Assembly: GCF_000020505.1 (NCBI RefSeq)
Contig: NC_011027.1
Location: 120,001 to 184,000 of the forward strand
Origin: Chlorobaculum parvum NCIB 8327
GTDB lineage: Bacteria; Bacteroidota; Chlorobiia; Chlorobiales; Chlorobiaceae
Reading direction: 5' to 3'
DNA: 64,000 nucleotides
In this document: in pieces, positions 32,739 through 33,299 of the stretch
Position numbering within the stretch: the stretch's first letter is position 1
Layout of the letters: each line of letters begins with the position of its first letter
The notes under the pieces: model-generated
Databases searched by the model: none
Seen by the model: the letters and a program-made list of their open reading frames with translations, nothing else
Told to the model about the DNA's origin: nothing
Position numbers and translations under genes: made by a program

Positions 32739-32810
32739 TCCGCGATAGCTCAATGGTAGAGCATTCGGCTGTTAACCGAAGGGTTGTAGGTTCGAATCCT
32801 ACTCGCGGAG
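32739..32810 (+). tRNA. tRNA-Asn (anticodon GTT)
   Basis: All arms fold: acceptor TCCGCGA/TCGCGGA (32739-32745 with 32803-32809), D arm GCTC/GAGC, anticodon arm TTCGG-CTGTTAA-CCGAA with GTT at 32771... counted as 32771-32773, and T arm GTAGG-TTCGAAT-CCTAC. CCA is not encoded. The 3' half is repeated 430 bp downstream. Confidence 0.95.
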
Positions 32811-32819
32811 CATCGAACT

Positions 32820-32862
32820 TAAAAAAAGGAAGTGCTTGAGTATGCGGCGCTTCCTTTTTTTT
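32820..32862 (+). terminator. Intrinsic terminator of tRNA-Asn (copy A)
   Basis: An A run and AAGGAAGTGC pair with GCGCTTCCTT, followed by a long T tract. The same hairpin occurs again at 33257-33299 (copy B). Confidence 0.85.
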
Positions 32863-32866
32863 GTTT

Positions 32867-33181
32867 GTGTCCGATCTGTCCGCCTTGTCCACCGTTACCC
32901 CTGATTTCGTGGATAACCCGATCCCGTACTTCCTTTATATCCTCAAATCCGAAGTGGCTGATCGCTATTACGTTGGTGTCTCGTCGAACCCGCAACGTCG
33001 TTTGGAGTATCACAATGGTTTCGAGAAAGGCTTTACCTCCCGTTACCGACCATGGGCAATTGTCTTCACCAGAAAGTATCCATCAAAAGCTCAAGCTCTT
33101 GTAGCCGAAACAACCGTTAAGGCTTGGAAAAGCAGCAAGATGATTGAACGGTTAATCGCTGGCGAGGCGGTGCTTTTGTAA
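32867..33181 (+). CDS. GIY-YIG nuclease-domain protein
   Basis: About 104 residues. The single domain starts at 'PYFLYILKSEVADRYYVGVS' (the GIY-YIG pair appears as LYI/YVG), with the helix 'NPQRRLEYHN' carrying the conserved Arg, and 'FTRKYPSKAQALVAETTVKA' with the Glu. Proteins of this small family are common but mostly uncharacterised; relatives include homing endonucleases and UvrC-type nucleases. No ATG precedes the domain: a GTG at 32867 or a later GTG must be used. The gene begins almost inside the tRNA terminator and ends just before the second tRNA 3' half, so the two repeat copies bracket it exactly. Confidence 0.8.
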   Translation: MSDLSALSTVTPDFVDNPIPYFLYILKSEVADRYYVGVSSNPQRRLEYHNGFEKGFTSRYRPWAIVFTRKYPSKAQALVAETTVKAWKSSKMIERLIAGEAVLL

Positions 33182-33188
33182 TGGTTAT

Positions 33189-33299
33189 GAGCATTCGGCT
33201 GTTATCCCGACTCGTCGGGATGTAGGTTCGAATCCTACTCGCGGAGCATCGAACTTAAAAAAAGGAAGTGCTTGAGTATGCGGCGCTTCCTTTTTTTTT
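33189..33299 (+). repeat. Second copy of the tRNA-Asn 3' half plus terminator (copy B)
   Basis: From GAGCATTCGGCTGTTA to the acceptor end GCGGAG (33189-33246) this matches the tRNA at 32759-32808, except that the anticodon-stem 3' side is replaced by TCCCGACTCGTCGGGAT, itself a hairpin. The following 50 bp repeat the tRNA terminator nearly base for base. The copy lacks the 5' half, so it cannot be a working tRNA. It has the form of an att-like duplication of a tRNA 3' end. Confidence 0.85.

Follow-up and report, generated by a model that had tools for sequence, protein, structure and literature searches.

Mobile DNA in bacteria docks most often at transfer RNA (tRNA) genes, and every mobile user of these genes that is known to us carries an integrase. 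One locus of Chlorobaculum parvum NCIB 8327 raises the question of how a single small nuclease gene, with no integrase beside it, came to lie between an intact tRNA-Asn gene and a partial copy of that same gene. The locus belongs to a stretch of 64,000 nucleotides (nt) of contig NC_011027.1 (positions 120,001 to 184,000), referred to here as the window. We consider it probable that the unit is a one-gene selfish chromosomal element whose small GIY-YIG nuclease belongs to a lineage dedicated to one tRNA gene, in this case tRNA-Asn. That the gene may be a minimal mobile unit had been suggested in an original prediction made from this DNA, and the suggestion is supported by empty sites in related genomes and by the association of the family with tRNA ends.

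All features of the locus are on the forward strand and are numbered from the first letter of the window. The host gene is an intact tRNA-Asn (GTT) at 32739-32811 (ARAGORN; Rfam tRNA, E 1e-16), and behind it stands a terminator hairpin at 32819-32862, with inverted repeat arms at 32821-32835 and 32847-32861 (RNA fold z -5.3). Beyond the nuclease gene, a second copy (copy B) resumes at tRNA position 21 and runs on through the same terminator. It consists of a fragment from the D-arm end to the anticodon (33189-33204), the palindrome ATCCCGACTCGTCGGGAT in place of the 3' side of the anticodon arm and the variable loop (33204-33221, the same position as in other tRNA-Asn loci), the T arm with the 3' acceptor strand (33222-33247) and the repeated terminator hairpin (33257-33298; fold z -5.6). 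Two blocks are shared with the intact copy, one of 19 nt covering the D-arm/anticodon part (95% identity, spacing 430 nt) and one of 82 nt covering the tRNA 3' half and the terminator (99% identity, spacing 436 nt), and this repeat lies far above the chance level. Between the blocks, the 11 nt ACCGAAGGGTT of the intact gene (32775-32785) give way in copy B to TCCCGACTCGTCGGGAT (33205-33221), the hairpin TCCCGAC-TC-GTCGGGA standing where the intact gene has anticodon-arm and variable-loop nucleotides. The original prediction had described both this arrangement and the hairpin swap correctly, and the swap proved to recur throughout the family. A comparison of copy B with Rfam found no known RNA. 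Between the repeats of the window lies the GIY-YIG gene alone, with no integrase; the tRNA-Asn gene is continuous and the nuclease gene stands outside it, within neither an intron nor an intein.

The nuclease carries a PF01541 GIY-YIG domain (E 4e-15 to 7e-15 in the domain search), and its other domain matches were weak hits to related nuclease domains. Invariant residues of its family alignment (A1) are Y10, Y21, G23, R31 and E67, which include the tyrosines of the GIY..YIG motif, the arginine and the catalytic glutamate. The gene had been thought to start at the terminator and to have about 105 codons, and the longest open frame does run from TTG 32861 for 106 amino acids (aa). Because homologues begin at the counterpart of GTG 32909, this start has to be corrected: the protein probably has 90 aa, is encoded at 32909-33181 and begins outside the terminator.

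The empty sites come from the same genus. A tRNA-Asn-like sequence is found in 21 of 21 genomes of the genus, 19 of which have a 73/73 identical copy, and the tRNA is 73/73 identical between occupied and empty congeneric genomes. In five congeners that have no nuclease gene, homology with the window covers the tRNA and the terminator, ends at 32860-32897 and starts again precisely at 33189. Because these five have an empty site and break exactly at the repeat, the intervening 430 base pairs (bp), placed at 32759-33188 or equivalently elsewhere inside the direct repeat, form on this comparison a unit that is an insertion relative to clean empty sites, and not all relatives carry the gene and the duplicate. 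A direct repeat made of tRNA and terminator, about 104 bp long, flanks the unit. Close homologues of the nuclease are present in part of the genomes of the order, and those that could be read completely adjoin tRNA-Asn; several carry stops or are truncated, and degraded copies are common. One Chlorobaculum genome (G011) has three gene copies interspersed in a series of 68-bp repeats derived from the tRNA, all of them bearing the hairpin. Hairpin copies without a nuclease gene occur in some genomes, such as G010. Mirror-image copies, consisting of the tRNA 5' part and the hairpin and lying upstream of the tRNA, occur in some genomes. At the tRNA-Asn loci of four Chlorobi genomes (G013, G018, G042 and G045), the upstream (5') copies have the loop AA and the downstream (3') copies mostly TT. 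These loops are reverse complements, as if the hairpin were inverted between the two sides; the inversion holds in these four genomes and fails as a general rule.

The same organization is found far beyond the Chlorobi. A search of 394 Bacteroidota genomes with a 12-sequence protein alignment found the nuclease family in 224 of them, with a maximum of at least 13 matches per genome, and 100 loci were fetched by protein score for counts at the level of the locus. A complete tRNA gene lies on the same strand within 300 nt in 82 of the 100 loci (67 upstream and 15 downstream of the nuclease gene, 21 anticodons in all), a proportion that may overstate that of the whole family because the seed alignment was built from tRNA-linked members. 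No tRNA gene lies on the opposite strand within 300 nt at these loci. The chance expectation is roughly estimated at one locus in 200, and UPF0213-like GIY-YIG loci of the same order, used as controls, have a tRNA nearby in 0 of 14 cases. At least 65 of the 82 tRNA-linked loci also have a partial copy of the cognate tRNA beyond the nuclease gene, which answers the earlier question of whether homologues are associated with duplicated tRNA ends. More than one GIY match is present in 30 of the 100 loci, one tandem example comprising five copies 315 bp apart. Draft assemblies under-count such arrays because contigs break at near-identical repeats, and draft contigs often terminate at these tRNA loci (L003, L008, L011, L012, L013, L073, L074 and others).

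The pattern CCCGAC..GTCGGG..GGTTCGA, a hairpin followed by the T-arm motif, occurs in 32 of the 394 genomes and in 18 genera (reversed control, 0), and its matches include tRNA-Val, tRNA-Pro and tRNA-Gly loci in which a GIY-YIG gene lies between the intact and the scarred tRNA. The replacement is typically TCCCGnn..nnCGGGA, and in the Met clade TCCGCC..GGCGGA. An automatic count found a tRNA-flanked hairpin in at least 67 of the 82 loci, a rough guide that takes in some terminators and ordinary tRNA arms. The replaced part is the anticodon arm in tRNA-Val (gap from 28 to 46), Ala (26/27 to 44/45), Arg (27 to 45), Gly (24-26 to 44/45), Lys (25 to 43) and Pro (27/28 to 46), and the 3' side of the anticodon arm in Met (34 to 48) and Asn (about 36 to 48). 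The gap of tRNA-Asp is in the T arm for most copies (50/51 to 59/60) and in the anticodon arm for a minority, and those of Ser and Phe lie in the D arm, most Ser cases having the gene upstream of the tRNA. As these alignments read, the position of the scar is set by the tRNA species, and the hairpin swap is a recurrent, position-specific mark of the family. The repeat is mostly local host sequence, produced by duplication or later gene conversion, because the DNA following the tRNA in copies A and B has a median identity of 96% within a locus (32 loci with a spacer of at least 20 nt), against 60% when different loci of the same tRNA are compared; in about six loci the two terminators differ.

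In a tree of 113 proteins over 86 alignment columns, the clades follow the tRNA species. The 21 tRNA labels need 31 changes on the tree (minimum 20; mean of 200 shuffles 65, each of them needing more than 31), and the 19 host-family labels need 45 (shuffled mean 66). Host and tRNA species are both reflected in the clades of this tree, with more weight on the tRNA because its labels need 31 changes against 45. The main Asn clade (support 99) spans Chlorobi, Ignavibacteria and three other families, the Met and Ser clades (support 94 and 93) group likewise, and the nuclease copies of one genome, such as G239 or G318, are spread over different tRNA clades. The UPF0213-like proteins form a separate group with support 100 and a long branch.

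Taken together, the comparison of genomes shows insertion at a point inside the tRNA gene that is fixed for each tRNA species, with retention of a complete tRNA, a scarred duplicate, tandem amplification, decay and fidelity of the lineages to their tRNA species. The displaced part of the tRNA and the adjacent terminator (in the mirror cases, the 5' part) are left on the far side of the gene, with one arm replaced by the hairpin. We infer that the nuclease cuts or nicks DNA at its defined point in the tRNA gene and that recombinational repair through the repeated tRNA half, which experiments have demonstrated for the phage enzyme SegB, would copy the unit into empty sites or multiply it. An essential tRNA gene would offer a conserved target and would select for repairs that leave the tRNA working. 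The hairpin marks the join, and it may be a recognition structure for the nuclease or a block to re-cutting of the duplicate. A hairpin or cruciform substrate is plausible given the closeness of the protein to UPF0213 proteins and then to SLX1 structure-specific nucleases: the closest solved sequences are the UPF0213 proteins BH0048 (1zg2) and EF2693 (1ywl), at E 3e-13, followed by SLX1 in the profile comparison (E 1e-8). UPF0213 proteins share size and domain with the nuclease, but they form a separate clade and their chromosomal copies in Chlorobiales lie away from tRNA genes. SLX1 is likewise a GIY-YIG enzyme and cuts branched DNA, but it has a housekeeping role, and its RING domain and SLX4 partner are absent here.

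Several observations weigh against a selfish, tRNA-dedicated nuclease. The intact tRNA is 100% identical in occupied and empty genomes, so a nuclease with its cut site within the tRNA would attack its own locus too, unless it cuts poorly or depends on some further feature, and classical homing requires that the insertion destroys the target site. Nothing in SegB corresponds to the hairpin. No recognisable complete tRNA lies within 300 nt in 18 of the 100 loci, of which seven start at a contig end and several others have hairpins or T-arm motifs. The protein tree is short, at 86 columns, and many of its forks are unresolved.

SegB of phages T4 and T6 is the known system with which the unit has to be compared. 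This GIY-YIG enzyme is reported to cut within tRNA genes, at the motif RAWTSGAAC, and it is needed for the tandem amplification of tRNA-Tyr together with segB via homologous recombination (PMC13096335); in T4, segB is located between tRNA-Arg and tRNA-Ile (PMC2988022). Like SegB, the nucleases described here are free-standing GIY-YIG proteins encoded beside tRNA genes and show no isotype preference as a family, and the complement of the SegB motif resembles the T loop. They also share further traits of SegB-type free-standing homing endonucleases, namely a gene outside introns and inteins, clean empty alleles and a lineage tied to its target gene. In contrast, SegB is phage-borne, no hairpin-scarred partial tRNA has been described for it, and it is one enzyme with many sites, whereas each chromosomal clade is associated with one tRNA species and one breakpoint; the proteins of the chromosomal units are also only about 80-95 aa long, unlike SegB. 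We place the family as a new variant among free-standing GIY-YIG mobile nucleases. More tentatively, and with rather less confidence than in the selfish nature of the unit, it might represent a new class of mobile element in Bacteroidota, in which one-gene, tRNA-dedicated units insert at a fixed arm, duplicate half of the tRNA so that an intact gene is kept, and exchange the targeted arm of the displaced half for a hairpin tag that works in mobility, for recognition or protection, unlike both homing and transposition. In the open PMC literature searched, no earlier description of chromosomal tRNA-bound GIY-YIG units or of an arm-for-hairpin swap was found.

Other explanations must be considered. 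The most credible of them, though itself rather unlikely, is that what moves or is recognised is the TCCCG..CGGGA palindrome, with the GIY-YIG protein as its processing enzyme and tRNA genes as favoured landing sites, in the manner of repetitive extragenic palindromic (REP) sequences and RAYT proteins. Both systems tie short GC-rich palindromes, including dispersed ones, to a small nuclease gene, and a single palindrome class is common to all tRNA species here. TCCCGAT..ATCGGGA palindromes are strongly over-represented in Bacteroidota (1001 against 16 reversed controls, or about 60-fold, in 296 non-Chlorobiales genomes, with up to 46 per genome), and in Chlorobiales the presence of ATCCCGACNNGTCGGGAT tracks the gene (15/4/7/72, Fisher 3e-9, not corrected for phylogeny). 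However, no Y1 (IS200-like) transposase is present, the domain search having returned GIY-YIG and weak related nuclease domains; the palindrome takes the place of a tRNA arm; a shared palindrome leaves the tRNA specificity of the clades unexplained; and dispersed palindromes of the window genome lack tRNA flanks. Palindrome number rises with gene copy number across Bacteroidota (rho 0.52), but this correlation, to which hairpins inside the units contribute and on which we do not rely, mostly disappears when host families are taken separately, a single family accounting for the stratified p of 0.011, and within the genus alone palindrome and gene are not significantly associated (Fisher p 0.15). 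A link between the dispersed palindromes and the nuclease is thus possible but not established. An RNA-level system is somewhat less probable still. The protein would be a toxin-like anticodon nuclease that cleaves its cognate tRNA, with the hairpin-bearing partial tRNAs acting as decoys or as RNA antitoxins like those of type III toxin-antitoxin systems; this would fit the tRNA-specific protein clades, the frequent use of the anticodon arm as the swapped arm and the order found in G011 (tandem 68-bp tRNA-like repeats, then a terminator, then the nuclease gene), which resembles ToxIN. The typical locus, though, has one partial copy placed downstream of the gene and no tandem RNA repeats ahead of it, G011 being an exception. 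Other clades swap the T or D arm, gene-less arrays (G010) and stop-broken genes are common, and the RNA of copy B, unremarkable except for its hairpin, folds no better than shuffles (z -1). That GIY-YIG enzymes are DNA nucleases also counts against it.

We regard it as very improbable that the unit is what remains of a larger integrative element, such as a phage, an integrative and conjugative element or a satellite, that inserted at a tRNA 3' end and then lost everything but a single cargo gene. Integration at tRNA genes is classical, and a complete tRNA with a partial copy as direct repeats on either side is what such elements leave, which is why the original prediction had invoked their footprint. 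The lack of an integrase was rightly noted there, but the likeness fails, since the breakpoint is inside the tRNA (in the anticodon, T or D arm, according to clade), the join carries a hairpin and mirror-image 5' versions exist. Moreover, the same integrase-less one-gene unit recurs across the sampled loci and 21 tRNA species, and no intact larger element with this gene and an integrase at the same breakpoint was seen. The window protein also has no match in phage or plasmid collections (tblastn) and no confirmed relative in viral contigs, where nine pattern matches lacked both tRNA and GIY-YIG and look like chance, and a phage, plasmid or viral origin was rejected. Just as improbable is a domesticated host nuclease that preserves or raises the number of tRNA gene copies, for example as a reserve against tRNA-cutting defence or toxins. 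The tandem arrays and the precedent of SegB, where amplification restores tRNA dosage (PMC13096335), agree with such a role, but the amplified copies are partial and hairpin-bearing, hence non-working tRNAs, and the patchy presence and frequent decay of the gene point to a selfish life cycle.

If the unit is indeed a selfish element, it appears that a nuclease roughly 90 residues long has spread to 21 or more tRNA species in the phylum without any other gene, with one lineage per tRNA. It would be a chromosomal counterpart to the SegB-driven amplification of tRNA genes in phages, and it makes testable how a selfish nuclease could live inside an essential gene without destroying that gene. The family also provides a natural panel of related nucleases with apparently different DNA targets, which would be useful for studying site choice by GIY-YIG enzymes.

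Some further observations concern individual loci. At L176:80-1393 a GIY-YIG gene is preceded by an array of nine tRNA genes (Asp and Gly) with CCCGAGCAA..GCTCGGG hairpin copies between them, and about five scarred copies of tRNA-Val are present at L110:1150-2150, most of their T loops being broken by a second insert, TTCTCCCGAAGGGATTCTG. The window genome (G000:C1) has six further TCCCGACnnGTCGGGA palindromes, at 413503, 432300, 622192, 724379, 784739 and 2046755 (reversed control, 0); the three that were read in context (L033-L035) have no tRNA flanks and a REP-like look. It also has a second GIY-YIG gene (G000:C1:2153125-2153334), which is UPF0213-like, has no tRNA nearby and was used as a control. 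The units would account for several oddities of annotation, among them partial tRNAs, contigs that break off at tRNA genes and GIY-YIG proteins whose unusual C-terminal tails run on into tRNA sequence. At L092:1460-1813 the nuclease frame continues into the scarred tRNA and yields the tail ..RVGGSNPSTPT..; in many records of GIY-YIG proteins, such tRNA-derived tails may be artefacts of annotation.
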